From contig NZ_AUJI01000029.1 in NCBI RefSeq assembly GCF_000424145.1, forward strand, positions 22,606-86,605: a stretch of DNA of 64,000 bases, read 5' to 3'. Position numbers and translations under genes: made by a program. The DNA is from Butyrivibrio sp. AC2005 (GTDB lineage Bacteria; Bacillota; Clostridia; Lachnospirales; Lachnospiraceae). The notes beneath the pieces were generated by a model that ran no database searches, had not been told where the DNA came from, and saw only the letters and a program-made list of their open reading frames with translations. Shown here one piece after another: positions 8,345 to 42,162 of this stretch. Position 1 is the stretch's first letter. Every line of letters starts with the position of its first letter.

Positions 8345-8552
8345 TTTACATCATCTATAAATCATGCTATATTATTACTGTTATTTGTAGTCATTTTTAA
8401 ATAATTATTGTTTGTAGAGCCTTGGTTTTTACCAGGGCTTTTGTTTTTGCAAAGAGTCAGCGCTCTTAAAAATCAGAGCCCTGGCTCTTTTTATATACAT
8501 TTATTTATGTAACAGGCATGGCCTGATCACATACAGCACTTAACTTAAATCA
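8345..8552 (+). promoter_or_regulatory. Leader copy 1: promoter, TGTAG elements, tandem terminators, CTTAAATCA box
   Basis: Promoter TTTACA (8345-8350), 17-bp spacer, TATATT (8368-8373). TGTAG occurs at 8386-8390 and 8413-8417. Hairpin 1 is AGCCTTGG (8418-8425) with CCAGGGCT (8432-8439) and a T-rich tail. Hairpin 2 is AGAGTCAGCGCTCT (8453-8466) with AGAGCCCTGGCTCT (8475-8488), 13 pairs with one mismatch, then TTTTT. The CCAGGGCT arm of hairpin 1 is also fully complementary to AGCCCTGG (8477-8484) in hairpin 2. CTTAAATCA (8544-8552) precedes the ribosome binding site of the AAA ATPase gene. Readthrough of both hairpins is needed for expression from this promoter. Confidence 0.8.
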
Positions 8553-8580
8553 AAAGTATAAGAAAAAAGGAGAAAAACAA

Positions 8581-10422
8581 ATGGCAAAAAAACTTATTTC
8601 TTTTAATTTCAATGGAGAGTTTGTACCGGAGCTTGAAGCTCTTACAAAGAGGTATCCGATATCAGAAGTAAGCACCACATACTGCACAACAGCAGCTTCA
8701 AGAATGAAGGAATATAATACTGATACCTATCTGGCAGAGGCTATCGCAAACTATATTGGCAGCATAGATACAATGCATTTGTTCGTTGGAAAAACATCAA
8801 AGAACGAATATGTTGCAGAGTACAAAAAGCCTGATAAAGACGAGATCCAGATCTGCATCGGACAGATCAAAGATGGCAAATTTCAGTTTAAGGCAGGAAT
8901 CATATCTGAAACAGGACTCCTTGGCCAGTATGCGGAGGGTCATAAAGGAACCATGTTTGCGATGGCGATGTTTCCTGAGATTGCAAAGGACTCGGAAGCC
9001 ATGAGCTTTATAGACATTCTGAAGAACTATGATGTCTCTGATGAGAATTATTCGAAGAGCATGTGTGGTCTTTCCAACAATATGTACTACAGGCTCAAGG
9101 ACGAAAAGTCGACTTCTCCTGTAAGATATGAGCAGGAGCCAAAAAAGCTGTCGCAGGCTGATATTGATGCAGTTAAGGTCGGCAGGATCTTCTGCGGAGA
9201 ACCCAAGGTGTTTAACAGAACAGCACCGCTTCCTTCTGAGGATTACGATGAGGAGGAGATTTCCGGTATCCCGGCAGCTTCATTAAGGGATATGTATCCT
9301 CTTGATGAGGGGCGCGTTCTTTCGGCAGAGGAAGAAGCAAGAGTCCCACAGATGGGAGACTGGTATGTTGTACCTGAATGGAGCATGAAGACTGCCAAAA
9401 GGATTGCTGCATCAAACCGTTTCAGAAAGTCCATCAGAAACATACTTTTATATGGCCCGTCAGGAACCGGAAAGACAGAAGGCTCACAGGCTATAGCTGA
9501 GATGCTGGGGCTCCCTTACTATACCCAGACATGCAGCCCTGATGATGATAAGTTTGATATTTTAGGGCAGCTGATTCCGAATACAGGAAAGGGAAAGACA
9601 GGAGATACAGACGAAGCCTGCAAGCAGCTTGATATTCCTACATTTAGTGATGTAGAAAATGATTTTAAGACATCATTTATGAAGCTTTTTGGTAAGGAAC
9701 CGGGGAAACTTGATTCCGAGGCTGACTGCTATCAGGAGATCACGAAGAGGCTTCTTGAAAAGAATGCAGGTGATGAGAATGACTTCGTGTATGTGAAGTC
9801 AGAACTTATCCAGGCGATCAAGCACGGAGGCTTCTGCGAGATACAGGAGGCAAACATCATAAAGAGAGCATCTGTCCTGGAAGCGTTAAACCCGCTTCTT
9901 GCTGGTGGCGGAAAGGACAACTTTATAAAACTTCCGACCGGGGAAGTGATCACAAGACATCCGGACTGCGTGATTGCATTCACTGTAAACAGGGAGTATG
10001 AGGGCTGTAACGACCTTCAGGAAGCTGTTTATTCCAGGATCAATCTTATCAAGCAGATACCGGAGCCTTCAGAGGATGAACTTTTTTCGCGCACAAAGGC
10101 ACAGACCGGGTTTGACAACGCAGCTCTTCTCAAAAAAATGGCAAAATGTGTCGTCGAGATCCATCAGTACTGTCGTGAAAAGGACATCACCGGAGGCGTA
10201 TGTGGTCCGAGAGAACTCATCGACTGGGCGCAGGATGCTATCCTGGAATCAGAAGACAGGGGCGAAGATAAGATATCTGAAAAAGCAGTAATAGCTGCAG
10301 CCCTTGAAACAGTTCTCGAAAAGGTTGCACAGAACGAGGACGATATTGAGGATGTTATTACAGGCGTCTTCAACAAGCACTTCAACCTTTCAACGGTTAA
10401 CGGTATGAGGCGGAAGAAATAG
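8581..10422 (+). CDS. MoxR-type AAA ATPase
   Basis: AAAAAAGGAG precedes the ATG. The 613-residue product carries a Walker A motif GPSGTGKT at about 292-299, a Walker-B-like segment GGFCEIQEANII near 415 and a sensor-1-like stretch IAFTVNRE near 465. The N-terminal 270 residues are not recognisable. This is the AAA_5/MoxR style of ATPase, which usually acts as a chaperone on a VWA-domain partner. Such a partner is encoded at 11492, one gene downstream and behind a near-identical leader. The two are probably co-regulated and work together, remodelling an unknown target. Confidence 0.85.
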   Translation: MAKKLISFNFNGEFVPELEALTKRYPISEVSTTYCTTAASRMKEYNTDTYLAEAIANYIGSIDTMHLFVGKTSKNEYVAEYKKPDKDEIQICIGQIKDGKFQFKAGIISETGLLGQYAEGHKGTMFAMAMFPEIAKDSEAMSFIDILKNYDVSDENYSKSMCGLSNNMYYRLKDEKSTSPVRYEQEPKKLSQADIDAVKVGRIFCGEPKVFNRTAPLPSEDYDEEEISGIPAASLRDMYPLDEGRVLSAEEEARVPQMGDWYVVPEWSMKTAKRIAASNRFRKSIRNILLYGPSGTGKTEGSQAIAEMLGLPYYTQTCSPDDDKFDILGQLIPNTGKGKTGDTDEACKQLDIPTFSDVENDFKTSFMKLFGKEPGKLDSEADCYQEITKRLLEKNAGDENDFVYVKSELIQAIKHGGFCEIQEANIIKRASVLEALNPLLAGGGKDNFIKLPTGEVITRHPDCVIAFTVNREYEGCNDLQEAVYSRINLIKQIPEPSEDELFSRTKAQTGFDNAALLKKMAKCVVEIHQYCREKDITGGVCGPRELIDWAQDAILESEDRGEDKISEKAVIAAALETVLEKVAQNEDDIEDVITGVFNKHFNLSTVNGMRRKK

Positions 10423-10425
10423 GAT

Positions 10426-10461
10426 TATAGGGGAAGGCTTAAGGCTTTCTCCTATTTTTTT
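10426..10461 (+). terminator. Intrinsic terminator after the AAA ATPase gene
   Basis: Stem ATAGGGGAAGGC / GCTTTCTCCTAT with a short loop, then seven T. It separates the ATPase from the hydrolase gene, whose own TATAAT box is at 10499-10504. Confidence 0.85.
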
Positions 10462-10539
10462 ATGTTTTTTTCATGGGCGTTCTTCGCTCATCCGGGTTTA
10501 TAATATCAAGTATAGTTATTAAGAAAGGCGAGTGAATTC

Positions 10540-11295
10540 ATGAGTTTACCGGCTGACTGGGATAAACCATCTCCTGAAAACAGCATATTATGTGAAAGGT
10601 TCCAGTATGGTGTGTTTGACTATTCTGGCACACTGCCATACCGATTCTTTGTGCCTGAATCCATGGAAAAAGTGCCGCTTGTAGTATTCCTTCATGGGGC
10701 TGATGCTTATGGAGATGACAATGAGCTTCAGCTTTCCATGCATGATATAGGGACGGTATTTGCCACAGAATCCTGGCAGAAAGAGCATCCCTGTTATCTA
10801 CTGGCTCCCCAGTGCAAAAAGGGCAGGCACTGGTCAGGACTTCTTGATGGAAATCGTGTATGCGTCCTGGTGAAGAGATTCATGGATCAGTATGCCAACA
10901 TAGACCCTGAAAGGATCTACATTTATGGCTACAGCGCAGGAGGCGTTGGATGTCTCGAAATATTAAAATACCATTCTGAAATGTTTGCCGGTGCTGTTTC
11001 CATATGCGGGGCTACGGGATTTAGAGACTTAAACAATCTTCTGAAAACACCCATATGGCTTATCCATGCAGCGGATGACAATATTGTAAAAACTTCATAC
11101 AGAGAAAATAGCGTAGTAAGTACTCATCTTGGCTCACGGGACATTTACGCAGAGCTTAAAGACAAACACCCGGATCTCCATTATACAGAATATGAAGCAG
11201 GTGAGCATAAAGAAAAGTATGGAATAAATCCTCACTGTAGCTGGGTATTGGCAGGAAGAGATGACCAGGTGAAAGAGTGGCTGTTTTCAAGGTAA
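10540..11295 (+). CDS. Alpha/beta-hydrolase, putative esterase
   Basis: The 251-residue product has the features of a feruloyl-esterase/PHB-depolymerase-like hydrolase. The oxyanion segment is VVFLHGADAYG. The nucleophile elbow GYSAGG (about 130-135) supplies the Ser. WLIHAADDNIV gives the likely Asp, and a His in the C-terminal EAGEHKEKYGINPHCSW completes the triad. No signal peptide is seen, so it acts in the cytoplasm. It has its own promoter (TATAAT at 10499) between two strong terminators. It therefore looks inserted between the AAA ATPase and VWA genes and need not share their function. Confidence 0.8.
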   Translation: MSLPADWDKPSPENSILCERFQYGVFDYSGTLPYRFFVPESMEKVPLVVFLHGADAYGDDNELQLSMHDIGTVFATESWQKEHPCYLLAPQCKKGRHWSGLLDGNRVCVLVKRFMDQYANIDPERIYIYGYSAGGVGCLEILKYHSEMFAGAVSICGATGFRDLNNLLKTPIWLIHAADDNIVKTSYRENSVVSTHLGSRDIYAELKDKHPDLHYTEYEAGEHKEKYGINPHCSWVLAGRDDQVKEWLFSR

Positions 11296-11299
11296 TCAT

Positions 11300-11467
11300 T
11301 TTACAATCCCTTGGAATAATGCTATATTATTACTGTTATTGTAGTTTTTAAAATTTAATTATTGTTTGTAGAGCCTTGGATTATTTCCAGGGCTTTTTTA
11401 TTTTCTTAGCAGAGTCACGGTTCATTTAAAAGCCCTGGCTCTTTTTATATACAGCAACCCTAAATCA
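11300..11467 (+). promoter_or_regulatory. Leader copy 2: promoter, TGTAG elements, tandem terminators, CCTAAATCA box
   Basis: Promoter TTTACA (11300-11305), 17-bp spacer, TATATT (11323-11328). TGTAG occurs at 11340-11344 and 11367-11371, the same 27-base spacing as in copy 1. Hairpin 1 is AGCCTTGG (11372-11379) with CCAGGGCT (11387-11394), then six T. Hairpin 2 is AGAGTCACGG (11411-11420) with CCCTGGCTCT (11433-11442), then TTTTT. AGCCCTGG (11431-11438) can pair instead with the 3' arm of hairpin 1. CCTAAATCA (11459-11467) precedes AAGGAGG. The loops and linkers differ from copy 1 while the stems are kept. Confidence 0.82.
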
Positions 11468-11491
11468 AAGGTAAAAAGGAGGAAAAACAAA

Positions 11492-13693
11492 ATGGCAAAA
11501 GTTTTAAGAAGGCTTCTTAACGAAGTAAAAGACAAGATGACGGATGAGGAATTCTTTACATCAAAGGTGATGAAACAGCACTTTGAAAGCATTATCGAGG
11601 GTGTCTGTAAGACTTTTCATCGTCGCATAGCAATCAAGATCATTAACGAAGGCAGTTCTGTTGCCTATACCAATGGCGACACAATAACCATAAACCTTAA
11701 TAATGGCTGGATAAAGAAACAGGCTTCAAGGCTTGATAAGTATTACATCATTGTGGGGATCATCCTGCATGAATGCGGTCATATCCTCTATACAGACTTT
11801 AAGCTTATGGAGAAATGCTTTGATGCACTTACAAACAACAGGCTTTTTCCAATCATCGACTACTCTGAGACACTGTCAGAGTGCTTTGATGACAACATGG
11901 GAAATCGCTTCCTTGGTATTTACCAGGCACTCGATAACTGTGTTGAAGATGGCCATATAGAGAAACGTGTCATTCGCTATGTCCCGGGCTACGGTGAGTG
12001 CCTTATGAAAGTAAGAAAGCTCCATCTTGCCCAGGAAGGGATAAAGACATATGAAGAGCAGCTTAAGGAGGCTGAAGAAGCAGGTAAGGACATTGACAGG
12101 ATTGGAACCATTATGAGCCTGGTCCTTATATATGCAAAGTTCGGAGTTGATAATGCCGGAGATATGTCTGATGACCTTACGGAGCTCTTTTATGGGATGA
12201 CACCTCATGTAGATGCGGCAGTTAATACAAACAATGCCACATTAAGGAAGAGAGAAGTAAATATCATTTTTGATATGCTAATTGACTTCATCTCAGATGA
12301 GATAAAAAAGGAAAAAGAGAAAGAACAGCCTGAACCTGAAGAAGAAACCTCAGATCCATCAGAAGAAGATGAGAAGGATACATCTGAGGAAGACACAGAA
12401 CCTGACTCTGATGAAGAAGATGCAGAATCAGACACTGATGAAGAGGAAAGAGATGAGCCTTCAAGTCCTTCGGTCTCTGAAGATGATGGTGACTCAGAAG
12501 AGGAAGGCAGCTCTGAAGAAGCAGAAGAATCAGAAAGAACAATGTCCAAAGAAGAGATGGAAAAAGCGCTTGAAGAAACACTTGCAGGTCTAGGTGATCT
12601 ATGCGATGAGATGTCAGATAAGACAGAGCATTCGGATACACCTGAAAACCCCGTTTCAGATGAGGACGAAATCACAGAGGCTGAAGGCAATGCTCCAGAT
12701 GAAGGGATGGATTTTGATCCTTCTAATGAAGATGGTCCTGAAGAATGGGATCTGTCTTACTTAGAGGATCTTGCCGCAGAAGAAGAGCTCGCTATAGTAA
12801 CCAAAAAACAGATAGTAAAGGCAATGACGAAAAATGCTGATGACACCAGAAAAGGAAGGACTGACAAATACCCCTCAATCCAAAAGTATGCGGAACCGGA
12901 TGATGAAGCAATTGCCATGTTCACCAGCCAGCATGAAGAACTGGACAGGATTGCAAGAAGGGTCAAGAAAAACCTTGATAAAGTCATAAAGGAGCGCCAA
13001 AAAGGTGACCGCTTAAATGGACTTTATACTGGGAAACAGCTTGACTCATCCCATGCTTACCGAAAGGATAAGAGGATATTTGCAAATAAGATACTCCCTG
13101 AGGATGTTCCTGACATGGAAGTATGTGTCCTTGTAGACTGCTCCGGCTCAATGTGCTGCAGAAGCCGCATGGATCAGAGCAGGAAATGTGCTTATATCAC
13201 ATGGAAGTTTTGTCAGTTTATGGGAATCCCGTGCTCAGTATATGGGCATACGACTGATGCATGCCCTGAAAGGCATGTTGTGATGACATGTGTTGCACAT
13301 CCCGATAACCTCGATAAGGATGATGACAAGCGGATATTCATGCTTCGTCCTGAATATGATAACAGGGACGGATGGGCAGTAAACTTCTGCGCTGAAGCAC
13401 TCAATAAGAGTAGTGCCACATCCAGGATGCTCCTTATCATCTCAGACGGACTTCCTGCTGCAGAGGGATATGGTGAAACACTTGGCAAACGCGACTGCCA
13501 GGAGGTTGTAAAGCGCTATAGGAAAAAGGGGATATCAGTTATAACTGCTGGTATTGATGACTGTGCAGGTGACATTAAAAGTCTCTATGTCGATGGGATA
13601 GCCCCCAAAGACGCTGCAAAGTTCCTTGATTACAGCGATATGACACAGCTTCCGAAAGCCTTTGCGACAATAATAAAAAAGGAGCTGCTGTAG
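11492..13693 (+). CDS. VWA-domain protein with HExxH motif and acidic linker (CobT-like)
   Basis: The 733-residue product has three parts. The N-terminal region (1-265) contains HECGH at about 93-97, matching the HExxH zinc-metallopeptidase motif. A highly acidic Glu/Asp/Ser segment follows (about 270-440). The C-terminal VWA domain has a MIDAS motif DCSGS at about 549-553 and a later IISDGLP. VWA proteins with an acidic linker, such as CobT, partner with MoxR/CobS-type AAA ATPases. The ATPase at 8581 under the matching leader is the obvious partner. The HExxH could make it a protease or only a zinc site; no third ligand is identified. Confidence 0.82.
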   Translation: MAKVLRRLLNEVKDKMTDEEFFTSKVMKQHFESIIEGVCKTFHRRIAIKIINEGSSVAYTNGDTITINLNNGWIKKQASRLDKYYIIVGIILHECGHILYTDFKLMEKCFDALTNNRLFPIIDYSETLSECFDDNMGNRFLGIYQALDNCVEDGHIEKRVIRYVPGYGECLMKVRKLHLAQEGIKTYEEQLKEAEEAGKDIDRIGTIMSLVLIYAKFGVDNAGDMSDDLTELFYGMTPHVDAAVNTNNATLRKREVNIIFDMLIDFISDEIKKEKEKEQPEPEEETSDPSEEDEKDTSEEDTEPDSDEEDAESDTDEEERDEPSSPSVSEDDGDSEEEGSSEEAEESERTMSKEEMEKALEETLAGLGDLCDEMSDKTEHSDTPENPVSDEDEITEAEGNAPDEGMDFDPSNEDGPEEWDLSYLEDLAAEEELAIVTKKQIVKAMTKNADDTRKGRTDKYPSIQKYAEPDDEAIAMFTSQHEELDRIARRVKKNLDKVIKERQKGDRLNGLYTGKQLDSSHAYRKDKRIFANKILPEDVPDMEVCVLVDCSGSMCCRSRMDQSRKCAYITWKFCQFMGIPCSVYGHTTDACPERHVVMTCVAHPDNLDKDDDKRIFMLRPEYDNRDGWAVNFCAEALNKSSATSRMLLIISDGLPAAEGYGETLGKRDCQEVVKRYRKKGISVITAGIDDCAGDIKSLYVDGIAPKDAAKFLDYSDMTQLPKAFATIIKKELL

Positions 13694-13710
13694 TAGCCCA
13701 GGAGGTAAAA

Positions 13711-14196
13711 ATGTTTGATGCGATACTTGCTTTAACAGCAATTGCCCGCTCGGCAATAGAATGTAGCGGAATAGCCTTTGCAAATAAGCAGATGGATAAA
13801 CGTGTACCTGATAATGCCTATGACGCTTCCGGATTATATTATGATTCGCTGGAAGAAAAGAACAGAGTAATGGTGCTTGATGATCTTTCTACAGTAAAGA
13901 GTGAGACTCCATCACAGAGGATGAACAGGGAGCATATCGAAAGGGAAGCTGCAAAGAGAGTAGCTGCCCGTCATGCCAATGACAGCAATAAACCCAGGGA
14001 AAATCCTATGGCTGACTGGGTCATGAACAATGACAGGATGCTCCTCGAAGTATTAAAACCCGGTGTTCATCTTATCCCGAACAACGTTATGGAGGGAATG
14101 GATGCTGACGAGATCGCAAAGTGGCTGTTTGCAAAGATTGAAGCAGTTGAGTCCGTGGAACATGTAACGGACGGACTGGAAGTAACAGTACGATGA
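13711..14196 (+). CDS. Hypothetical protein, 161 aa
   Basis: AGGAGG lies 7 bases before the ATG and the gene begins 17 bases after the VWA gene, so it is probably in the same operon. The product starts with a short apolar stretch (FDAILALTAIARSAI) that is too weak to call a membrane anchor. A charged, helix-prone middle follows (SQRMNREHIEREAAKRVAAR), then a C-terminal part with DADEIAKWLFAKIEAVESVE. No known domain is recognised. Confidence 0.7.
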   Translation: MFDAILALTAIARSAIECSGIAFANKQMDKRVPDNAYDASGLYYDSLEEKNRVMVLDDLSTVKSETPSQRMNREHIEREAAKRVAARHANDSNKPRENPMADWVMNNDRMLLEVLKPGVHLIPNNVMEGMDADEIAKWLFAKIEAVESVEHVTDGLEVTVR

Positions 14197-14221
14197 AAGA
14201 TACTGTAAAAAGGAGAAGATA

Positions 14222-19713: not shown

Positions 19714-21309
19714 ATGGCAGAAAGCAAAGATTTGTTAGCAGTATTATGGAGCGGAGCAGACGTCCTTCGCGGAAAAATGGATGCGAACGAGTATAAGACA
19801 TATCTCTTAGGACTTGTATTCTACAAGTATCTATCAGATTCATATCTTGTTAAAGTCTATGACCTTCTTAATGATGAAGAGCCCAGTGATCTATTTGAAG
19901 CTCAGGCCGCTTATGAAGAAGCTATGAAGAGCTCTGACAGGGACGACCTTCTTAGCGAGCTTAAGGATTCTCTTCATTATACACTTGAGCCTGAGATGAC
20001 ATATGTAAGCATTTTGAAAGAGGCAAAGGAAAACAGATTTAACAGAGAAAAACTCCAGGCTGCTTTTAACAGAATCCAGGAATCAGATGAGCTCTTTAAC
20101 TCTTTGTTTGCAGATGTTGACCTTTATTCCAACAGATTAGGAGCTGGCGACCAGAAGCAGAGCTCAACTATATCGGATCTTATAAAAGTTCTTGAAGATG
20201 CAGATTTTATTAACGCCAAAGGTGACGTTCTTGGAAATGCTTATGAGTATCTGATCGGACAGTTTGCTTCTGAGACAGGAAAGAAGGCAGGAGAATTCTA
20301 TACTCCCCATGGCCCTGCTCAGATTTTGTGCCGTATTGCTATGACTGGACAGGAAGAGAAAAAAGGATTACAGGTTTATGACCCTTGTATGGGCTCCGGT
20401 TCACTTATGCTCAGCTGCAGAAATTATTCCAAAGAGCCTGAATATATCAAGTATTATGGGCAGGAGCTCATGCCTTCAACATATAACCTGGCAAGAATGA
20501 ATATGTTCCTTCATGGCGTTATGCCTGAAAACCAGCACCTAAGAAATGCAGATACTCTTGATGCTGACTGGCCTACAGATGAAGAAACAGAATTTGATGT
20601 AGTTACCATGAATCCACCTTATTCAGCAAACTGGTCTGCAGCAGAAGGATTTAAGCAGGATGAGAGATTTATGGATTATGGTGGAGCACTTGCGCCTAAA
20701 TCAAAGGCTGATTATGCATTCCTATTACATGGCTTTTATCATTTAAAGCCTAATGGAACCATGGCTATCGTGTTGCCTCATGGTGTCCTTTTCAGAGGAG
20801 CTTCAGAGGGAAAAATCAGGCAGATATTGCTTGAAAATGGTTCGATTTATGCTGTAATTGGACTTCCTGCAAATATGTTTTACAACACATCCATTCCTAC
20901 ATGCATCATAGTTCTCAAAAAACACAGAGAAGGCAGGGATGTACTGTTTATCGATGCATCTAACCTGTTTGAAAAGGATAAAAAACAGAATGTGATGAAT
21001 AACGAACATATAGATCATGTTCTTGAGTTATATAGAAATAGGCAATCCGTAGAAAAAGAAGCATATCTGGCATCTTATAAGGATATTAAGGACAATGATT
21101 TTAACCTTAATATTCCTAGATATGTTGATACAAGCGAAGAAGAAGACGAAATTGATTTAAAGAATCTAACTACAGATATCAAGAATACAAATGAAGCTAT
21201 CAAGGAAGGTAATTCTCAGTTAAAGCAAATGCTCTCAGATCTGACCTTCAATAACACAGAAACAGCGGAAGCGGTTCGCGAATTCATGAGTATTTTTGAG
21301 GAGGTGTAA
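19714..21309 (+). CDS. hsdM: Type I restriction-modification system, DNA methyltransferase subunit
   Basis: The start is set at 19714, after AGAGGAAGG; earlier in-frame ATGs lack a site. The 531-residue product has the HsdM layout. An N-terminal helical domain begins LLAVLWSGADVLRGKMDANE. The catalytic domain contains GEFYTPH, the AdoMet motif DPCMGSGSL near 223 and the N6-adenine motif NPPY near 300. A C-terminal coiled segment (NLTTDIKNTNEAIKEGNSQL) probably contacts HsdS. hsdS starts two bases after the stop and hsdR follows hsdS by two bases, so this is a compact M-S-R operon with all subunits intact. Confidence 0.95.
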   Translation: MAESKDLLAVLWSGADVLRGKMDANEYKTYLLGLVFYKYLSDSYLVKVYDLLNDEEPSDLFEAQAAYEEAMKSSDRDDLLSELKDSLHYTLEPEMTYVSILKEAKENRFNREKLQAAFNRIQESDELFNSLFADVDLYSNRLGAGDQKQSSTISDLIKVLEDADFINAKGDVLGNAYEYLIGQFASETGKKAGEFYTPHGPAQILCRIAMTGQEEKKGLQVYDPCMGSGSLMLSCRNYSKEPEYIKYYGQELMPSTYNLARMNMFLHGVMPENQHLRNADTLDADWPTDEETEFDVVTMNPPYSANWSAAEGFKQDERFMDYGGALAPKSKADYAFLLHGFYHLKPNGTMAIVLPHGVLFRGASEGKIRQILLENGSIYAVIGLPANMFYNTSIPTCIIVLKKHREGRDVLFIDASNLFEKDKKQNVMNNEHIDHVLELYRNRQSVEKEAYLASYKDIKDNDFNLNIPRYVDTSEEEDEIDLKNLTTDIKNTNEAIKEGNSQLKQMLSDLTFNNTETAEAVREFMSIFEEV

Positions 21310-28126: not shown

Positions 28127-28193
28127 TTTTATTGACCTTTATATATATTTAGATATATTATACATATAAATATATTATATATGGAGGCAGATA

Positions 28194-31355: not shown

Positions 31356-31476
31356 TTTACGATATACATAAGCAATGCTATACTTATTTTGTTATTTGTA
31401 GTATTTTCGTATTGGGGCTCTGATTATCCACGGATTTTTTCCGTGGCTTTTTTTATCCCTAAGGCAACCTAAATCT
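31356..31476 (+). promoter_or_regulatory. Leader copy 3: promoter, TGTAG element, terminator, CCTAAATCT box
   Basis: Promoter TTTACG (31356-31361), 17-bp spacer, TATACT (31379-31384). GTTATTTGTAG follows, as in copy 1. Only one hairpin is present: CCACGG with CCGTGG (31428-31446), then seven T. CCTAAATCT (31468-31476) precedes AAAAAGGAG of the 79-residue gene. This is the shortest member of the family. Confidence 0.72.
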
Positions 31477-31502: not shown

Positions 31503-31742
31503 ATGGAAAGGAAAAAACTGGTATACAACGCGATCCAGGACATCTGGAAGATAGCATCATCGGATTTTGCAAACAAGACCGGCGCGGATATGACAGACGA
31601 CGACTGGACAAAGCTGGTAACTGCAATTGATTCATCCCGAAAGAAATATCACGATGTCGGACCGGTAGAAGATGCTTTTTATGGCAAAATGAGCATGGCT
31701 CTACTTGATCTCATCGAGCAGGAGTGCAAAGAAACACAATAA
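31503..31742 (+). CDS. Hypothetical protein, 79 aa
   Basis: AAAAAGGAG stands 9 bases before the ATG. The small soluble product is helical and acidic, with a Trp-rich centre (IQDIWKIASSDFANKTGADM, then DDDWTKLVTAI). I recognise no family. It is transcribed from leader copy 3 and ends in a terminator at 31760, so it is a single-gene unit. Confidence 0.65.
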   Translation: MERKKLVYNAIQDIWKIASSDFANKTGADMTDDDWTKLVTAIDSSRKKYHDVGPVEDAFYGKMSMALLDLIEQECKETQ

Positions 31743-31786: not shown

Positions 31787-31816
31787 TTGACTATTATATA
31801 TTTACCGATATATTAT
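31787..31816 (+). promoter_or_regulatory. Promoter of the secreted-protein/topB operon
   Basis: TTGACT (31787-31792), 18-bp spacer, TATTAT (31811-31816). ATCGGAGGA precedes the start codon at 31845. Confidence 0.65.
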
Positions 31817-31844
31817 ATTTATATCTATATCGGAGGAATAAAAT

Positions 31845-35592: not shown

Positions 35593-35618
35593 GAGGGCAG
35601 GCTTAAGGCCTGCCCTTT
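35593..35618 (+). terminator. Hairpin after topB, overlapping the next promoter
   Basis: Perfect stem AGGGCAGG (35593-35600) with CCTGCCCT (35609-35616). Only three T follow, and these are part of the TTTACA -35 box of leader copy 4. It may act as a weak terminator or insulator. Confidence 0.55.
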
Positions 35619-35841
35619 ACATTGTCTATTATATTAGTTATAATATACTTGTTTTTGTAGTAAAGTTTTTATTATTGTTTGTAGTGGTCTGAACGTATTT
35701 TGCGTTTGGGCTTATTTTTTACCTGGAAAAGGTATAGCGCAACTACACGCAATAGTTGTAGGAAAGAGAGCAGCTTAGAGATATAAGTCTGTTCTTTTTT
35801 TATTACAAAAACGGAACCCCGTAAGGCAACCACTTAAATCA
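35616..35841 (+). promoter_or_regulatory. Leader copy 4: promoter, TGTAG elements, hairpins, CTTAAATCA box
   Basis: Promoter TTTACA (35616-35621), 17-bp spacer, TATAAT (35639-35644). TGTAG occurs at 35656-35660 and 35680-35684. Hairpin 1 is GTCTGAACG (35687-35695) with CGTTTGGGC (35703-35711) using G-T pairs, then a T-rich run. A middle hairpin is CAACTA/TAGTTG (35740-35757). Hairpin 2 is AGAGCAGCTTA (35767-35777) with TAAGTCTGTTCT (35784-35795), then seven T. CTTAAATCA (35833-35841) precedes AAAAGGAGG. Hairpin 2 is nearly identical to that of copy 5. Confidence 0.8.
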
Positions 35842-35857: not shown

Positions 35858-36106
35858 ATGTCACTATTAGAAACAAACGGAGACTACCAGTTTGCAGAGA
35901 ATGTGGCGGAAATCAACAGAAGTCTTTTAAAGCTTAATAAAGCTTTAGAAGAACAGATGGATTTTAGCCGCTCGCTTACCGCAGCTGTAAAACAGCTTAC
36001 GGAAGTCATCGACCAACAGAATGAACAGATAAGAAAGTTCATCAAGGATAAAACAGATGATCTATACGCAACTGAAAATCTTCGCACTGATGTAGTCCTT
36101 AAGTAA
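35858..36106 (+). CDS. Small coiled-coil protein
   Basis: The 82-residue product is almost wholly helical, with heptad-like Leu/Ile spacing (NRSLLKLNKALEEQMDFSRS; LTEVIDQQNEQIRKFIKDKT). It probably forms a coiled-coil oligomer. No membrane segment or known domain is seen. AAAGGAGG precedes the ATG, and it is driven by leader copy 4. The next gene (36145) shares the CCTAAATCA box, so both may be in one transcript. Confidence 0.65.
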   Translation: MSLLETNGDYQFAENVAEINRSLLKLNKALEEQMDFSRSLTAAVKQLTEVIDQQNEQIRKFIKDKTDDLYATENLRTDVVLK

Positions 36107-36122: not shown

Positions 36123-36131
36123 CCTAAATCA
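36123..36131 (+). promoter_or_regulatory. CCTAAATCA box before the small membrane gene
   Basis: GCAACCCTAAATCAAGAGG precedes the ATG at 36145 and matches the ribosome-binding-site-proximal box of the five leaders. Here it stands without its own promoter or hairpins, which suggests it acts on translation or mRNA stability. Confidence 0.55.
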
Positions 36132-36144
36132 AGAGGTAACAATC

Positions 36145-36408
36145 ATGGAAACAAAAATGGCAAAAGAACAGATAATCGTAAAAGTAGCAAGAAAACTTCT
36201 CTGGATGAAAAAGAACCAGCCGGCAAAGTACCTTATATTATCGACCATAACAGATGGAATGGTCCTTGGTACTTGGATCTTTTTATCAACTGGATTTGCA
36301 TTATGGATGGTAAATAACGGGTACTGCGCCTTTGATTCAGCAATGATGGCTCTTGTACTGGTTGACCTGAACATATTGTTTTTCGACCTGACTATGAATA
36401 ACGATTAA
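36145..36408 (+). CDS. Small two-span membrane protein
   Basis: The 87-residue product has a basic N-terminus (KVARKLLWMKKNQPAKYL) and two hydrophobic segments (about 34-55 and 62-82, including MVLGTWIFLSTGFALWMV). Its size and topology would also fit a holin-like or phage-type small membrane protein. No family is recognised. A terminator follows. Confidence 0.6.
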   Translation: METKMAKEQIIVKVARKLLWMKKNQPAKYLILSTITDGMVLGTWIFLSTGFALWMVNNGYCAFDSAMMALVLVDLNILFFDLTMNND

Positions 36409-36426
36409 AACCATGTAGCAAAAATT

Positions 36427-36455
36427 AGCGATTATCTTCGGATAGTCGCTTTTTT
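36427..36455 (+). terminator. Intrinsic terminator after the small membrane gene
   Basis: Stem AGCGATTATC / GATAGTCGCT with a TTCG tetraloop, then a T-run. Confidence 0.9.
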
Positions 36456-36527
36456 ATGCCCGTATGCTTATATATTTTAAGATATATTATATTGAAATAT
36501 ATATTTTCATATATTATAATTATTTCC

Positions 36528-36854
36528 ATGAGAAGAGCAATATATAAGAAAAACCCGTCAAAAGCAATAGGAATCATGGTAGCAGCTGTCCTTGTGGCAG
36601 GAGCTCTTTTTTGTACTGGATTTTTCGGTACCCCCTTTGGCAAGGATCCTGTATCTGAGCCAAAGGCAAAGGAAAACACCGAGAACTACTCTGCACCGGA
36701 AAAGAAAGAGCAGTCTGTAAATCTTGAGATCGTTGCGCCTAAAGATCCAGCCTTAAATCAGGAAAAGAAGAGTTCAAACATCAGCGCTTCGAAGCAGTCA
36801 AACCTTGAAAAAGCCGTTGATGATTTGATAAAGCTAACAGAAAGCGATGGGTAA
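36528..36854 (+). CDS. Exported or membrane-anchored small protein
   Basis: The start is placed at 36528, which gives a basic N-terminus and a hydrophobic helix (AIGIMVAAVLVAGALFCTGF). No clear ribosome binding site precedes it; an AT-rich TATATTATA promoter region lies immediately upstream, so the message may be nearly leaderless. The 108-residue product ends in a charged, low-complexity extracytoplasmic tail. It lies two bases before the HTH gene. Confidence 0.55.
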   Translation: MRRAIYKKNPSKAIGIMVAAVLVAGALFCTGFFGTPFGKDPVSEPKAKENTENYSAPEKKEQSVNLEIVAPKDPALNQEKKSSNISASKQSNLEKAVDDLIKLTESDG

Positions 36855-36856
36855 AA

Positions 36857-37378
36857 ATGGAAATTGCATTAAAAGCAGTTAGGGCAAAATACGGCCTTAC
36901 TAAAGCCGCTTTTGCCAAAATCATAGGAATCACAGAACTATTTTATTCACAATATGATGACAAGAACGAATTACCAAGTAAATATGTCTACAAGCTCTGG
37001 CAGAACCTTAAAGACTTCCCAGTCCCGGATGATTTTTTCTTCTACACATCTTTCACAATGGAAATCAACATGAAGTACCATCACATGACCCAAAAGCAGG
37101 TTGCAGATCATTTTGACATTGCCAATCAGTCAACCATCAGCGGATATCTAAAAGAAAATATCCCCATGTATGAAAAGAAAGAGTACTTCTTAAAGTTTGA
37201 ACCTTTTATACTTCCTTCGATTCTAGTAGAGGGTAAGGACGGATATGTGAAAAAAGAGATCACTGACCTTCAGCCAAAAGGAAATTTTATCCTGGTGGAG
37301 AAGAGAAGGCTCCAGAAGATAAGCCGTTTAGACAGAGAAAAAGAAGAGAATCATGTTGAGACAAAAGAAGCTATGTAA
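36857..37378 (+). CDS. Putative HTH DNA-binding protein
   Basis: The 173-residue product has two helix-turn-helix-like segments: residues about 10-45 (YGLTKAAFAKIIGITELFYS) and about 75-100 (MTQKQVADHFDIANQSTISG). The second is a good Xre/phage-repressor-type match. A C-terminal basic part follows (VEKRRLQKISRLDREKEE). It may regulate its own operon, which continues into a membrane protein (26-base overlap) and an AAA ATPase. Confidence 0.6.
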   Translation: MEIALKAVRAKYGLTKAAFAKIIGITELFYSQYDDKNELPSKYVYKLWQNLKDFPVPDDFFFYTSFTMEINMKYHHMTQKQVADHFDIANQSTISGYLKENIPMYEKKEYFLKFEPFILPSILVEGKDGYVKKEITDLQPKGNFILVEKRRLQKISRLDREKEENHVETKEAM

Positions 37379-38138
37379 ATTTAATACCAATAAAGCTGCC
37401 ACGATTATCCCGATAGGTGCATTATTAGTGGCAGCCACAGCTGTTGCAGGGACGGTGCTTTATCTTTCCGTACCAGAAAAAACCATGTCCTCTGCAATCG
37501 ATGTTCCAGATGTACAGGTAAAGACATCCGGCAAGGAAGATACACCGGATTACACGCTTGAAACAAATTACAAAGGGCACCTTTCACAGTTCCCCGAATT
37601 GTATGAGATTCCTTTTAAAAAATCAGACAGTTATGTCTGCAACAAGGAATTCTCCAGGGCTCATTACAATGTCCTTAATGAGTATGAAAATGATGCTACA
37701 GCCTTCATTGAGACTCTGTTTAATGTTGACTACAGGACTGTTGCCGCCAATCAAACAGGCTTTGTTTCAGATGTAATGCAGAACGGGGATTATGAAACGC
37801 TTATAACCAGGAATTTTGGCACAGAAGATGAGAAGACCATGTATCTCTATGACTACATAGAAGACATCTCATCTTATTTCATAGAGAATCAGGTAGAGAT
37901 GGAATCCAAATTCTATACGGACGATTCCCTTGTTTACAGCGATTTTTATACATTTGTCCGCGGAGAACTTGTATTTACCATATATAGCTCAGAAGATCCT
38001 TCATCAGAATACAAGGTAGGAGAGGAGTATCAGGTCCCTATCGAGGTTGCAATGCAGCGTTCTCCCTCAAATTCATTTAACAGAACCGTCTGCTCTTTTG
38101 GCAAAGCAGGGGACAACACATTTTTTCTTACACCATGA
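37353..38138 (+). CDS. Membrane-anchored extracytoplasmic protein
   Basis: It overlaps the HTH gene by 26 bases. The 261-residue product has a basic N-terminus and one hydrophobic segment (about 15-37, ATIIPIGALLVAATAVAGTVLY), followed by a ~220-residue outside domain of unknown fold. No lipobox is present. Position between a DNA-binding protein and an AAA ATPase is intriguing but gives no clear function. Confidence 0.6.
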   Translation: MLRQKKLCKFNTNKAATIIPIGALLVAATAVAGTVLYLSVPEKTMSSAIDVPDVQVKTSGKEDTPDYTLETNYKGHLSQFPELYEIPFKKSDSYVCNKEFSRAHYNVLNEYENDATAFIETLFNVDYRTVAANQTGFVSDVMQNGDYETLITRNFGTEDEKTMYLYDYIEDISSYFIENQVEMESKFYTDDSLVYSDFYTFVRGELVFTIYSSEDPSSEYKVGEEYQVPIEVAMQRSPSNSFNRTVCSFGKAGDNTFFLTP

Positions 38139-38160
38139 TTTTGTATAAGAGGTTATTACA

Positions 38161-38943
38161 ATGGGAAAAGCAAGATTAAAACTTCCTGAAGACATCGCCA
38201 AGTTTGTAGAAATAGAGAACTGCGATGATTTTGACTTGGACAAATACTTTAAAACTCAGACACAGATTGATATCATAAACGACATTCAGAAGAACGGAGA
38301 ACGCTGTAAGGAACTAGCAGAGTTTGGGGTACAGTACGTTAACACGACACTCCTTTACGGACCAACCGGAACAGGTAAGACCACATTTGTCCGCTTTGTG
38401 GCACATACACTGGAAAAAGACTTTGCATATGTCAACTTTTCAAGTCTTATGGAAGATGGCTTTGGAAATACAGAAAGGAACTTAAAGAAAGTGTTCCGGT
38501 ATATGACTGCTCTGGACTGCGTGTTCATGATCGACGAGATAGACTGTATCGCAACCAGCAGAACAGCATCCACCAATGACACTTTAAAGAGCATAACGAT
38601 AACTCTGATGCAGGAACTTGATTACTGTAAGACACATGCCCCGAAAGCGATAATCCTTGCTGCCACCAACGTAGTAGATAACCTTGATCCTGCGCTCCTT
38701 TCCAGATTCTCGATCAAAAAGGAAATACCTCTTCTGAATAATGAAGAGAAGCTGGGATTTGTATGTAAATATATGAACAGCATGGATGTTCCATACGACG
38801 TTGACCAGGTAAGAGAGTACATAGCAAGAAATTCCAGGGTAACGCAAAGGATCATGGAGCAGGACATAATAAGAGCTCTTATATCCTGGCTTGACAATTC
38901 AAAAGAGGGATTTGTTACTCTTTCAGCCTATCAGAATTATTAG
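38161..38943 (+). CDS. AAA ATPase, FtsH/SpoVK-like core
   Basis: The 260-residue product is essentially one AAA module: Walker A GPTGTGKTT (about 67-75), Walker B VFMIDEIDC (about 121-129), a sensor-1-like AATNV and the arginine-finger region LDPALLSRFS. It lacks a protease domain or a membrane helix. It is likely a hexameric remodelling ATPase acting on a partner encoded nearby. The start follows AAGAGGTTATTACA, a weak site, 22 bases after the upstream gene. Confidence 0.85.
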   Translation: MGKARLKLPEDIAKFVEIENCDDFDLDKYFKTQTQIDIINDIQKNGERCKELAEFGVQYVNTTLLYGPTGTGKTTFVRFVAHTLEKDFAYVNFSSLMEDGFGNTERNLKKVFRYMTALDCVFMIDEIDCIATSRTASTNDTLKSITITLMQELDYCKTHAPKAIILAATNVVDNLDPALLSRFSIKKEIPLLNNEEKLGFVCKYMNSMDVPYDVDQVREYIARNSRVTQRIMEQDIIRALISWLDNSKEGFVTLSAYQNY

Positions 38944-38993
38944 AAATTCCAAATACTCGTAAAACTTCCCTACAAATTTGTATAAATTGTAAA

Positions 38994-39021
38994 TTGACTT
39001 CCAAAATATGTGTCCTATAAT
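38994..39021 (+). promoter_or_regulatory. Promoter of the LrgA/LrgB-like operon
   Basis: TTGACT (38994-38999), 16-bp spacer, TATAAT (39016-39021), 45 bases before the start codon. Confidence 0.7.
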
Positions 39022-39066
39022 AAGCGATGTTTATTTTTGTTATAGATGTTTTGAAAGGCTCTTTAC

Positions 39067-39426
39067 ATGAAATATATTAAGCAATTTCTGATCATTCTCG
39101 GATTTTCATTTTTAGGTGAATTATTAAAGACCATACTGCCATTGCCTATTCCTGCAAGCATTTACGGAATGGCTTTGTTATTTATAGCTTTAGTTACCGG
39201 GATCGTAAAATATGAGAAAGTCAAGGATACCGGTTTATTTTTAATTGAAATAATGCCTGTCATGTTCATCCCGGCAGGAGTTGGACTCATGTCAAGCTGG
39301 ATAACCCTGAAACCGATCCTGTTACCGGTAAGCCTTATCACAGTTGTTACCATAATTACGGTTATGATGGCTACTGGATGGGTATCACAGATTATCATAA
39401 GAAAGTCAAGAAAAAAAGATGAATGA
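39067..39426 (+). CDS. LrgA/CidA family holin-like membrane protein
   Basis: The 119-residue product has four hydrophobic segments and the family signature LGELLKTILPLPIPASIYGM near the N-terminus. LrgA/CidA proteins are holin-like; with LrgB/CidB they have been linked to murein hydrolase control and to pyruvate or metabolite transport. It overlaps the LrgB-like gene by eight bases, the standard arrangement. Whether it is the Lrg or Cid type cannot be told. Confidence 0.9.
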   Translation: MKYIKQFLIILGFSFLGELLKTILPLPIPASIYGMALLFIALVTGIVKYEKVKDTGLFLIEIMPVMFIPAGVGLMSSWITLKPILLPVSLITVVTIITVMMATGWVSQIIIRKSRKKDE

Positions 39427-40111
39427 GTTCTTTCAAAATTCTATGTTTGCAGGAGTTACATTAAGCCTTTTATCATATATGGCTGGAGTGGCTTTAAAAA
39501 AGAAGTTTAAGCTGGGGATTTTTAATCCTTTACTGATTTCAATCGTTATATCATGTATGGTTCTTATTGCCGGAAAAGTTGATTATGAAACATACAATGA
39601 AGGTGCAAAATACTTAAGTTATTTATTGACACCTGCCACTGTTTGTCTTGCCATTCCGCTATATGAGCAGCTTGAGCTGCTAAAAAAGAACTACAAAGCG
39701 GTTCTGCTGGGATTACTGGCAGGAACGATAACAAGCATGACAACCGTGTTTATCTTAGCCAAGCTATGCGGTCTTACCCATGCAGAGTATGTAACACTTT
39801 TACCCAAATCGATTACAACTGCAATTGGAATGGGGGTATCTGAAGAATTAGGCGGATACGTGACCATAACAGTAGCCGTGATCATAATAACAGGCGTGCT
39901 TGGAAACATGTTTGGTGAATTCATATGCAAGATAGCGCATATAGAAGAGCCTATTGCCAAGGGTTTAGCATTTGGTGCCAGTTCCCATGCAATCGGAACT
40001 GCAAAAGCAATTGAGATAGGTGATGTAGAAGGTGCCATGAGCGGTCTTGCAATAGCCGTTTCAGGTATTTTCACCGTGCTTTTGGCATCTGTATTTGCCA
40101 ACCTGTGCTGA
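39419..40111 (+). CDS. LrgB/CidB family membrane protein
   Basis: The 230-residue product is full length for LrgB, with several hydrophobic helices and conserved segments PATVCLAIPLYEQLELLKKN, LPKSITTAIGMGVSEELGG and the C-terminal KGLAFGASSHAIGTAKAIEI. It is translationally coupled to the LrgA-like gene. A symmetrical terminator follows. Confidence 0.92.
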   Translation: MNEFFQNSMFAGVTLSLLSYMAGVALKKKFKLGIFNPLLISIVISCMVLIAGKVDYETYNEGAKYLSYLLTPATVCLAIPLYEQLELLKKNYKAVLLGLLAGTITSMTTVFILAKLCGLTHAEYVTLLPKSITTAIGMGVSEELGGYVTITVAVIIITGVLGNMFGEFICKIAHIEEPIAKGLAFGASSHAIGTAKAIEIGDVEGAMSGLAIAVSGIFTVLLASVFANLC

Positions 40112-40125
40112 GCCGAAAAATTAAA

Positions 40126-40169
40126 AAATCTTCCTGTACACCAGAAGTTCCGGCGTATAGGAAGATTTT
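40126..40169. terminator. Bidirectional terminator between convergent operons
   Basis: Stem AAAATCTTCCT with AGGAAGATTTT has A-run and T-run on its flanks. It can therefore end both the LrgAB-like operon and the reverse-strand gene at 40193. Confidence 0.85.
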
Positions 40170-40192
40170 ATAATATATGTCAGAAAGCTATG

Positions 40193-40801
40193 TTAAAGAT
40201 AATCTACTATAGCATTCTCAGTATATTTTTTATTAGGCTCTGCCATCTCTTTCTCCGTTTTTTTACCCAGAAGCAGATATCTGTAATTCTTGCAGTAGTC
40301 AAAAATATCCAATATCTCAGAATAGTAGATCACATCATCACTGCCATCGCATGATATGCGTATATTGCCATTGTTCATCACACCCGTAATTTCCGCACCA
40401 ACAAATAATTGTCTGTCAGTCTTGATTATATAGCTCTGGCCAACCGTATACCATTTGTTCAGATCAATTGTAAACTGTTCCCTATATCTGACAGCGAGAC
40501 ACCCTCTGTGTTTACAATCTGCCGCCCTTCCAAAGGCAATGCGTCCAAACTCCATCTCTTTAGCACTGCACGAGAATATACCCTTTTTATTCTCAACAAG
40601 AATGCTTCCATCATATTCCACATTAATAACTTTTGATCTCAGCATTCCATATTTTTCAGAAACATAGTGCACATGATCCCCGGCTTTGAACCATGTTATG
40701 CCATCAAAAGAAACCTCATAAACTTTCCTGATAGCAAAGAAATTTCTCTCCCCAAATGATCTTTTCTCATAAGAAAATGAGTCATCCCCATATAAACCCA
40801 T
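40193..40801 (-). CDS. Hypothetical protein, 202 aa
   Basis: On the reverse strand AAGGAGGG precedes the ATG at 40801. The product is beta-rich with repeated SH3-like units of the form WxxGDxVxY...GxIxVENK (ITWFKAGDHVHYVSEKYG; NKWYTVGQSYIIKTDRQLF). This suggests two or three small barrels. No membrane segment is seen and the function is unknown. The upstream region holds an AT-rich palindrome that may be its operator. Confidence 0.6.
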   Translation of the reverse strand: MGLYGDDSFSYEKRSFGERNFFAIRKVYEVSFDGITWFKAGDHVHYVSEKYGMLRSKVINVEYDGSILVENKKGIFSCSAKEMEFGRIAFGRAADCKHRGCLAVRYREQFTIDLNKWYTVGQSYIIKTDRQLFVGAEITGVMNNGNIRISCDGSDDVIYYSEILDIFDYCKNYRYLLLGKKTEKEMAEPNKKYTENAIVDYL

Positions 40802-41077
40802 TTTCCGAAAGTTCCCTCCTTTTTCAATTTTTCCTTATCAATCCACGTTAATACAACCCACAGAATATATGATGTTGCGATTAACAAAGGATACTTTCAA
40901 TATATGATGAATATATCATATATTTATAAGTCATGCTTGGACTAGGGCGTGAGCACTATATGAGCCAATTATTATCGACATTTCCCTAGGATTTCTCCGC
41001 ATTTCCCCACATTCTGACTGTTTTTTCCCTAACTTTTCCCTTATCATTCTTATGACCTTTTCTTAAATTTTTGCAAC
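40802..41077. other. Intergenic region upstream of the reverse-strand gene
   Basis: Apart from the AT-rich palindromic region at 40865-40922 and C-rich runs (TTTCCC repeated near 40980-41040), no gene or RNA is visible. Confidence 0.4.
40865..40922 (-). promoter_or_regulatory. AT-rich palindrome and repeat, possible operator
   Basis: ATATATGATG occurs at 40865-40874 and 40900-40909. The second copy is part of an inverted repeat TATATGAT (40901-40908) with ATCATATA (40915-40922). It sits 60-120 bases upstream of the gene at 40801 and so could be its operator. Confidence 0.4.
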
Positions 41078-41103
41078 AAAAAAGGAGAGCACCAACACTC
41101 TCC
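41078..41103 (-). terminator. Intrinsic terminator of the reverse-strand gene at 41112
   Basis: Stem GGAGAG / CTCTCC with a run of A on the plus strand, that is T on the reverse strand. Confidence 0.85.
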
Positions 41104-41111
41104 ACATTTCA

Positions 41112-41729
41112 TTAAAGACAACTGATTTCGATAAGGTCTTCCCTGCCTTCTTTTTCCAGTATTCCCCGAAGCATATCCTGCCAGTTATCAGTCAGCATAA
41201 GGCATTTATGCCAAAAACAAATCCCGAAAAGCATTATAGCCTCTTCTTTCCTGTAAGAATACTGGTTCTGTCCGATATCAAGATCCTCAAATATATCAGT
41301 ATTAGTCGAATCCTCGTCGACAAAGTACAGATTTTTCAGAATATAATGATAGATATGTCCTACCGGCACCTTTGTTTCACCATCATTCTTCAGAACATCA
41401 CACGCCTTAAAGTCCCTTACTTCATCAAGCGTTTCATATAGAATTTCCTGCGCCTTCTGATCATTGAGAAGCTGCATGACCATACGGTTTATCACTCCAT
41501 CACTAACCAGATCGTCCCTTATGAAATTCTTGTATACATACGGAAGAAGTTTTTCTATGGAATCATTCCCGAACATTGAGAAATTGAAATACTCCTTATT
41601 AGCATTAATATCCTTGTACGCTATCAGAATTGCCTCGATATTCTTAATCGTCTTATCACTATAACGGGCTCCGCTCATACCCGCGATGCGTTCAATAAGA
41701 TTTTTGGCCTTTGTATTTTTGTTGGTCAT
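41112..41729 (-). CDS. Hypothetical protein, 205 aa
   Basis: The start is placed at 41729, where GGGGGAAAG lies upstream; the open frame extends further but its N-terminal part is hydrophobic intergenic translation. The product is soluble, helical and acidic, without a recognised domain (MTNKNTKAKNLIERIAGMSG at the start). It contains several His/Cys/Trp residues near the C-terminus (EAIMLFGICFWHKCLMLTDN). It is a single-gene unit with its own terminator. Confidence 0.6.
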   Translation of the reverse strand: MTNKNTKAKNLIERIAGMSGARYSDKTIKNIEAILIAYKDINANKEYFNFSMFGNDSIEKLLPYVYKNFIRDDLVSDGVINRMVMQLLNDQKAQEILYETLDEVRDFKACDVLKNDGETKVPVGHIYHYILKNLYFVDEDSTNTDIFEDLDIGQNQYSYRKEEAIMLFGICFWHKCLMLTDNWQDMLRGILEKEGREDLIEISCL

Positions 41730-41933
41730 ACTTTCCCCCAGTAACAAATAAAGTAATACACTTATCCCCATATTGTTAAATAAATATCCAAAGTATAACA
41801 ATTAAGATTATATCTCAAATTTGTTAATTTTTAAAGATGTATTTTATGTATTTTTTACATTTAGTTAAGAAAAATTTTATAATTACATTTTTTTAGTCCT
41901 ATAGATAATCGTAAAATATATTATGGTATAACG

Positions 41934-42162
41934 TTGACATAATCCATTTATTAATATATTATAATTATGTTTTTAGTTATTAGTTTTCATATTATTGCAT
42001 GTAGAAGTCGAATCAGATTACTGGTCCGGCTATTTTTTATGCCTTTTGGCAACGCAACATGTATCCTTTGGTACGTGAGAAGAGAGCAGCTTAGTGATAA
42101 GTCTGTTCTTTTTTTATGTAAATACAAACCATTAACCAGCTTATAGGAGCAGCCTTAAATCA
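41934..42162 (+). promoter_or_regulatory. Leader copy 5: promoter, TGTAG element, hairpins, CTTAAATCA box
   Basis: TTGACA (41934-41939) is followed by TATTAT at 41957 (17 bp) or TATAAT at 41960 (20 bp). TGTAG is at 42000-42004. Hairpin 1 is AGTCG (42006-42010) with CGGCT (42027-42031), then a T-run. A middle hairpin is CATGTA/TACGTG (42058-42076). Hairpin 2 is AGAGCAGCTTA (42083-42093) with TAAGTCTGTTCT (42098-42109), then a long T-run. CTTAAATCA (42154-42162) follows, farther from the GAAGGAGG site than in the other copies. Confidence 0.75.

Follow-up and report, generated by a model that had tools for sequence, protein, structure and literature searches.

Why should a single stretch of bacterial DNA carry several promoters that each run into a transcription terminator ahead of an unrelated gene? 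The question is raised by 64,000 nucleotides (nt) of Butyrivibrio sp. AC2005 (contig NZ_AUJI01000029.1, positions 22,606 to 86,605; the window, hereafter), in which a first-pass annotation had described five promoter-terminator leaders, at 8345, 11300, 31356, 35616 and 41934, as a regulon. We confirmed that these five leaders are real and related to each other, and not the product of chance; a -35/-10 pair with a 17-bp spacer starts at each of the five positions. Within the reach of our scans, the leader family is confined to one plasmid lineage. Our preferred reading, in which we place about even confidence, is that the leaders are a dispersed family of self-terminating promoters of that lineage, likely forming a regulon, and that they would be released by a factor, likely plasmid-encoded, acting at two conserved motifs.

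All five window copies follow a common order, consisting of a sigma-70-like promoter, a motif with the consensus TGTT-n-TTWGTAGT around 5 nt downstream of the -10 box (motif 1), an AT-rich linker, a second motif with the consensus ATTRTTGY-nn-GTAG (motif 2) abutting the first predicted terminator (T1), a ribosome-binding site (RBS), and the gene. A second predicted terminator (T2) was identified in copies 1, 2, 4 and 5, and copy 3 contains T1 alone; small hairpins additionally lie between T1 and T2 in copies 4 and 5. In scans of the window, terminator-like sites were more numerous than in shuffled sequence (9 vs 2.8 +/- 1.9, and 17 vs 8.0 +/- 2.7), whereas promoter-like sites in the same scans were not (7 vs 7.4, and 35 vs 30.9), indicating that the signal resides in the shared order of parts and not in the promoters alone. 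From the last terminator to the start codon, none of the five copies has a promoter-like site; thus, expression driven by the leader depends on passing T1 and T2.

The five leaders and their genes all lie on the forward strand. Copy 1 comprises the promoter TTTACA-17-TATATT with a TG before the -10 box (8345..8373), motif 1 at the predicted transcript start (TGTTATTTGTAGT, 8379..8391), motif 2 abutting T1 (ATTATTGTTTGTAG, 8404..8417), predicted T1 (8416..8441) and T2 (8453..8488), and an AAA_5 ATPase gene (8581..10422). Copy 2 has the promoter TTTACA-17-TATATT (11300..11328), motif 1 (11334..11345), motif 2 (11358..11371), predicted T1 (11370..11396) and T2 (11411..11442), and precedes a VWA-like gene (11492..13693). 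Copy 3 consists of the promoter TTTACG-17-TATACT (31356..31384), motif 1 (TGTTATTTGTAGT, 31390..31402), a diverged motif 2 (TATTGGGG, 31410..31417) and the single predicted T1 (31428..31446), followed by a gene of 79 aa (31503..31742). In copy 4, the promoter TTTACA-17-TATAAT (35616..35644), motif 1 (35650..35661), motif 2 (35671..35684), predicted T1 (35686..35712) and predicted T2 (35767..35795) lead to an 82-aa gene (35858..36106), which heads a run including a helix-turn-helix (HTH) gene (36857) and an AAA gene (38161). Finally, for copy 5, the promoter TTGACA-17-TATTAT (41934..41962) is followed by motif 1 (TGTTTTTAGTTAT, 41968..41980), motif 2 (ATTATTGCATGTAG, 41991..42004), predicted T1 (42006..42031) and T2 (42083..42109), and a DUF5688 gene (42201..43154). 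The -35 sequence TTTACA or TTGACA previously given for the whole set thus applies to copies 1, 2, 4 and 5 and not to copy 3, and of the two spacers allowed for copy 5 (17 or 20 bp), that of 17 bp yields TATTAT in register with the other copies. As to the claim that the downstream genes are unrelated, the AAA_5 and DUF5688 assignments stand, and the VWA-like protein contains the DCSGSM motif typical of VWA proteins, with no Pfam or NCBIfam match.

We compared these leaders with relatives from elsewhere in a curated set of 30, which were chosen with the position of motif 1 in view. All 30 contained a terminator hairpin, starting 61-75 nt past the -35 box in 29 leaders and at 110 nt in G069a, and a second terminator was detected by script in 19. 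Counted from the -35 box, every leader has motif 1 beginning at position 34-36, just past the -10 box, a constancy that is partly due to the construction of the set. Motif 2 is found at a variable distance of 18-28 nt from motif 1 in 29 leaders, and the end of the T1 tail lies 65-78 nt from motif 1 (29 leaders), with around 26-40 nt of transcript between motif 1 and the T1 stem. The G+C content of the leaders is 0.19-0.31 (17 matches).

Over nine unlike leader types, mean pairwise identity was 0.83 for motif 1, 0.79 for the -10 box, 0.62 for the -35 box, 0.60 for motif 2 and 0.48 for the T1 region, and the values for the spacer (0.35) and the linker (0.38) equalled those of block-shuffled sequences; these identities are from a fitted alignment, and fitting helps every block.

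The hairpins are also mostly retained. The five window leaders fold better than their dinucleotide shuffles (z of -6.1, -4.0, -2.2, -5.0 and -3.1 for copies 1 to 5), and the mean z of T1 by itself is -5.3 relative to single-base shuffles. We compared stems within 14 hairpin sets of related leaders, each against its first member; the cells are not independent, and the counts carry no null. Of 304 paired cells, 252 were unchanged, 26 had a change on one side and 12 on both sides with pairing kept, and 14 were broken or gapped. Pairing therefore survives in 38 of the 52 changed cells, bearing out the earlier claim that stems are mostly kept while their sequences change. In the class-A alignment, 96.3% of T1 and T2 cells pair (shuffled, 94.5), and the covariation score is 0.152, compared to 0.120 +/- 0.008 in shuffles. 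In class A we additionally noted by eye, with no count made, an alternative pairing of the 3' arm of T1 with the 3' arm of T2.

We investigated the distribution of the family with several searches. The copy 2 leader, used as a query, matched other contigs of Butyrivibrio sp. AC2005, three other genomes of the genus at E<1e-15, and one plasmid, pCY186 of Butyrivibrio proteoclasticus B316; at E<=0.001 it matched 8 of 61 genomes, the matches beyond those at E<1e-15 being short and weak. A model trained on nine class-A leaders (R1) recovered the untrained copies 3, 4 and 5 at E-values of 1.3e-5, 0.0048 and 0.0043, with a first false match at 0.0097 (minus strand over copy 1), which places copies 4 and 5 near noise; across the genus, R1 matched 13 of 79 genomes at E<=0.1. 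A sequence model trained on 29 leaders, with G069a left out (R2), yielded 35 matches with E<1e-3, spread over 11 of the 79 genus genomes, and we took matches above this threshold as noise (28 of the 79 genomes match at E<=0.05). These 35 comprise the 29 training leaders and six others, namely four clear new leaders (three of ssb and one of the 54726 type), G069a, and one relic-like site in G074.

Within B316, which has four contigs, all eight R2 matches fell on pCY186, and the three remaining contigs had none (of 2577 first-look candidates, 50 were scored). In AC2005, we identified 12 leaders on contigs C11, C19, C28 and C44, of which 11 were found through R2, and the twelfth (DUF3854 type, on C11) was spotted by eye beside its orthologue; R2 additionally returned one motif-only promoter on contig C24 (E 0.0016). 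Most of C11, C19 and C28 is co-linear with pCY186, and C44 matches it in part. We infer that these four contigs represent a pCY186-like plasmid, probably a single molecule. A pattern search for a -10 box followed by TGTT..AG, without regard to terminators, found 10 places on pCY186, seven of them with a terminator and a gene following and three without; it missed the YqaJ leader of pCY186, which R1 finds, as well as window copies 1 and 3.

The searches also extended beyond the genus. R1, run over 397 genomes of the family Lachnospiraceae under strict filters (7 candidates scored per listed genome), yielded AC2005 and a weak match in G476 (E 0.0105). A pattern scan of genome contigs produced 20 matches, eight of which had a -10 box and a T1 of -11.3 kcal/mol or lower; these eight were Butyrivibrio records and one Lachnospiraceae metagenome-assembled genome (RUG12896). 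The remaining 12 included 11 without T1 and one, in Staphylococcus caprae, with a weak T1 (-7.9). Phage records gave no match, and the viral contigs gave three pattern matches, none with a terminator. No Rfam family scored above its gathering score in the window. A looser scan allowing four errors gave mostly chance matches, and was excluded from the counts. We found no report of these leaders in the open-licence PubMed Central (PMC) literature, as judged from titles and the starts of abstracts, and likewise none on the control of these plasmid genes.

Leader loci are shared between pCY186 and AC2005. The pCY186 leaders precede genes at 3222, 52515 (ssb), 54726, 57337, 73285, 80100 (DUF5688), 168573 (DUF3854) and 170460, the last annotated as a YqaJ recombinase, and AC2005 has a leader at an orthologue of each of these eight loci. 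The 54726 orthologues are only 26% identical. At the 57337 locus, the two leaders stand ahead of different genes: copy 2 of AC2005 precedes the VWA-like gene and then the 57337 orthologue (gene 13711), and behind the pCY186 leader, by eye, only a short N-terminal piece of the VWA-like frame is left. For DUF3854, a 29-bit match to DnaG, far under the cut-off, was obtained in the relative; we call the protein weakly primase-like. Taken together, the leader genes (SSB, a YqaJ-type nuclease, the weakly primase-like protein, the AAA/VWA pair, DUF5688 and small unknown genes) look like a set for establishment or maintenance.

How might such leaders work? RNA polymerase is predicted to stop around 65-75 nt after the start, and in the resident state T1 and T2 would end most transcripts. 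A trans-acting factor might load at motif 1, either on DNA or on the 5' end of the RNA, and at motif 2, and let the polymerase pass, which would raise SSB, the YqaJ-type nuclease, the primase-like protein, DUF5688 and other maintenance or establishment genes together. The persistence of the motifs amid sequence drift, and their presence in one plasmid lineage, would fit best with a factor of that lineage acting in trans to control whether the polymerase passes. A more specific version, which we advance only tentatively, is that one plasmid-encoded factor reads GUU-n-UUWGUAGU at the transcript start plus the copy-like motif by T1, and simultaneously opens 8-12 scattered self-terminating promoters; this would be a new class of antitermination and a switch for establishment or transfer. 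In copy 4 and its pCY186 orthologue, T1 is not required to shield the gene from upstream transcription, as an inverted repeat rich in G+C runs right up to the -35 box (by eye). The compact signature of promoter, start-site motif, pre-terminator motif and terminator marks probably co-regulated genes of a Butyrivibrio plasmid lineage. A trans factor, if one exists, would be a new Bacillota antiterminator and a ready tool; failing that, the plasmid would set uniform low expression via one portable module.

Several observations weigh against release by such a factor. The class-A T1 barely varies, and class A does not exceed its shuffles in the number of pairs with both sides changed (3 vs 2.0) or in that of pair types (11 vs 11.1). 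In isolates G019, G066, G069b and G099, leaders stand ahead of missing or short frames. In gaps without a leader, the strand that carries the leaders shows no enrichment of terminators (23/41 vs 15/30, or 22/40 without the YqaJ leader gap, which was filed as non-leader; the limit was -9 kcal/mol, at which no terminator was detected in the 73285 leader gap), leaving long-range processivity without support. Motif 1 could equally be the site of a repressor. T1 is weak in the 73285 and DUF5688 types (-6.3 to -10.2 kcal/mol), with z of -1.0 to -2.2 in four of five such leaders and -4.6 in copy 4. Lastly, a joint query of four plasmid proteins (HTH 36857, an S1-domain protein, 19184 and 14222) matched 8 of 79 genomes, and 7 of the 11 genomes with leaders had no match. 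The element-encoded antiterminator proposed by the first-pass annotation is favoured by the occurrence of one family before unrelated genes, with stems mostly kept, and by its restriction, within our scans, to one plasmid lineage, which fits a trans factor encoded by the element, and is disfavoured by the lack of a candidate that tracks the leaders.

The last two of these observations would be expected under passive attenuation, in which fixed, leaky terminators hold down strong promoters and each gene receives a low, constant dose with no switch. This model needs no factor, and the joint candidate search yielded none; T1 sequences also differ freely from type to type, and some T1 are weak, which would suit a leaky damper. 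We nevertheless consider it unlikely, as it explains neither the conservation of motif 1 (0.83) and motif 2 (0.60) beside a spacer and linker at background, nor the restriction of the design to one plasmid lineage in our scans.

Among known systems, the nearest concept is the establishment regulon of the pLS20 family, which follows the same logic with different sequence, size and parts. The EGeRS of that family are, like the leaders, related upstream sequences dispersed on one plasmid directly before the RBS, and define a regulon; EGeRS copies are 62-95% identical and are carried by one conjugative plasmid of a Gram-positive host (PMC8708921). EGeRS1, as described there, is 420-750 bp long and G+C-rich, with no promoter found, whereas the leaders are short and AT-rich (G+C 0.19-0.31) and carry promoter boxes; we did not assign them to EGeRS1. 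EGeRS2 combines a promoter with TTATCCC dual operators (PMC8708921), whereas each leader has one or two terminators and a different pair of motifs. In the first 300 nt from the -35 box (upstream of the -35 box was not searched), the TTATCCCnnTTATCCC operators were found in 0 of 30 leaders, and the leaders were not placed in EGeRS2 either.

EGeRS2 nonetheless suggests another explanation, that the leaders are repressed establishment promoters with motif 1 as the operator, which fire transiently in a repressor-free recipient, with the terminators as a second lock or damper. EGeRS2 operators lie beside the -35 box and, in two of four cases, just past the start site (PMC8708921); SSB and nuclease genes would suit establishment; and a gene that is SRAP-like by eye, on AC2005 contig C24, has motif 1 mostly inside an inverted repeat around the -10 box and start, without a terminator. 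However, a motif 1 dyad is seen by eye in part of class A only and not family-wide, the TTATCCC dual operator is missing from all 30 leaders from the -35 box onward, and repression explains neither motif 2 nor the terminators, such that we judge this explanation improbable, slightly more so than passive attenuation. The C24 repeat itself (L059:1494-1533; C24 ~20785-20820), beside the frame with MCCRYYYADK, is a perfect 13-bp inverted repeat, GACTACAAATAAT / ATTATTTGTAGTC, whose right half holds most of motif 1. LexA control was considered and set aside: by eye, the region upstream of lexA contains GTTC-type boxes, and not motif 1.

Returning to release by a trans factor, we compared the leaders with known antitermination systems. 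Lambda Q acts with a promoter-proximal element that is closely followed by a terminator, a layout that the leaders resemble; we know of no Q counterpart for a motif 2 next to T1. No antitermination family was found in a PHROGs scan of 10 window proteins, without a dedicated search for the Q family. LoaP, one of the systems invoked in the first-pass annotation, shares with the leaders a leader terminator and a Bacillota setting; it acts via a UNCG hairpin (PMC12691694), and none was seen in the leaders. Of 30 leaders, 2 contain TNCG between motif 1 and motif 2, and neither has it as the loop of a stable stem. LoaP (NF033641) was over cut-off in 11 of the 79 genomes, of which only two (G007 and G069) are among the 11 with leaders; the nine other leader-bearing genomes had none over cut-off. 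The single NF033641 match in B316 (contig C1) scored 94.6 bits vs a cut-off of 125. B316 thus has eight leaders without LoaP over cut-off, indicating that a LoaP/NusG paralogue is not needed, and LoaP was dropped as the factor. Separately, AC2005 encodes a 269-aa NusG paralogue, under the LoaP cut-off, on another contig (C3:337551).

Antitermination associated with mobile elements offers two further comparisons. ConAn, a processive system of conjugation operons in Gram-positive bacteria, is, like the leader family, plasmid-borne and tied to intrinsic terminators and conjugation; it is a protein and an RNA heading one long operon (PMC8955417), whereas the leaders are many short promoter-terminator units. 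A large antitermination RNA of the conAn type was rejected, as the T1 tail ends 65-78 nt from motif 1 (29 leaders). The canT system of Tn916 is likewise a case of mobile-element antitermination, as proposed for the leaders; it was cloned as a 452-bp cis-acting region (PMC11658703), compared to the ~26-40 nt of leader transcript before the T1 stem. The self-acting leader RNA that was the alternative in the first-pass annotation, of the put or EAR kind, was not supported: the 26-36 nt between motif 1 and the core of motif 2 are nearly unstructured, with a mean of -1.0 kcal/mol over 30 leaders and a lowest value of -3.3, and no structured RNA precedes T1. The leader family differs from conAn, LoaP, put/EAR, canT and both types of EGeRS.

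The RNA might still act differently, if an antisense or trans RNA paired with motif 1 or 2, or if motif 2 paired beyond T1 and blocked it. In the copy-4 type, motif 2 can pair with a segment between T1 and T2 in the window, pCY186 and RUG12896 (shuffle p of 0.01, 0.03 and 0.18). Such downstream pairing at p<=0.05 was found in just 3 of 30 leaders, however; no exact reverse complement of the class-A motif 2 was found in the window or in pCY186 1-185000; and a minus-strand promoter-like site overlaps one leader of the five, copy 1. As a general explanation, we regard an RNA switch as very improbable. The copy-4 type pairing (window 35671-35760; L028:38052-38232; L127 ~5805-6000) competes with a local hairpin, and is possibly an RNA switch confined to that type.

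The first-pass annotation had also counted a CYTAAATCA box as part of the leader. This box is present in all five window leaders, in the version CCTAAATCT in copy 3, and is additionally found ahead of internal operon genes, at 36123 in the window and at 73572 and 173403 in pCY186. An exact-box search of pCY186 found it at 3 of 8 leader genes vs 7 of 110 other plus-strand genes. The box before internal and other genes indicates that it belongs to the translation start region, and not to the promoter-terminator unit. A GCAACC-TTAAATCA box before the RBS of leader genes, and of certain internal genes in these operons, was noted at window 8544, 11459, 31468, 35833, 36123 and 42150 and before 73572 and 173403 in pCY186, and is possibly a translational element.

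We additionally noted a second dispersed AT-rich repeat (TTATATATTTA..GATATATTATA) at 28139-28176, 31794-31831 and 36468-36505 of the window, near the starts of genes 28405, 31845 and 36456, and a similar stretch upstream of the 66313 gene in pCY186. Finally, long imperfect inverted repeats with GTTCGGCTTTTTACA units are found at window 60145-60279, near the contig end.

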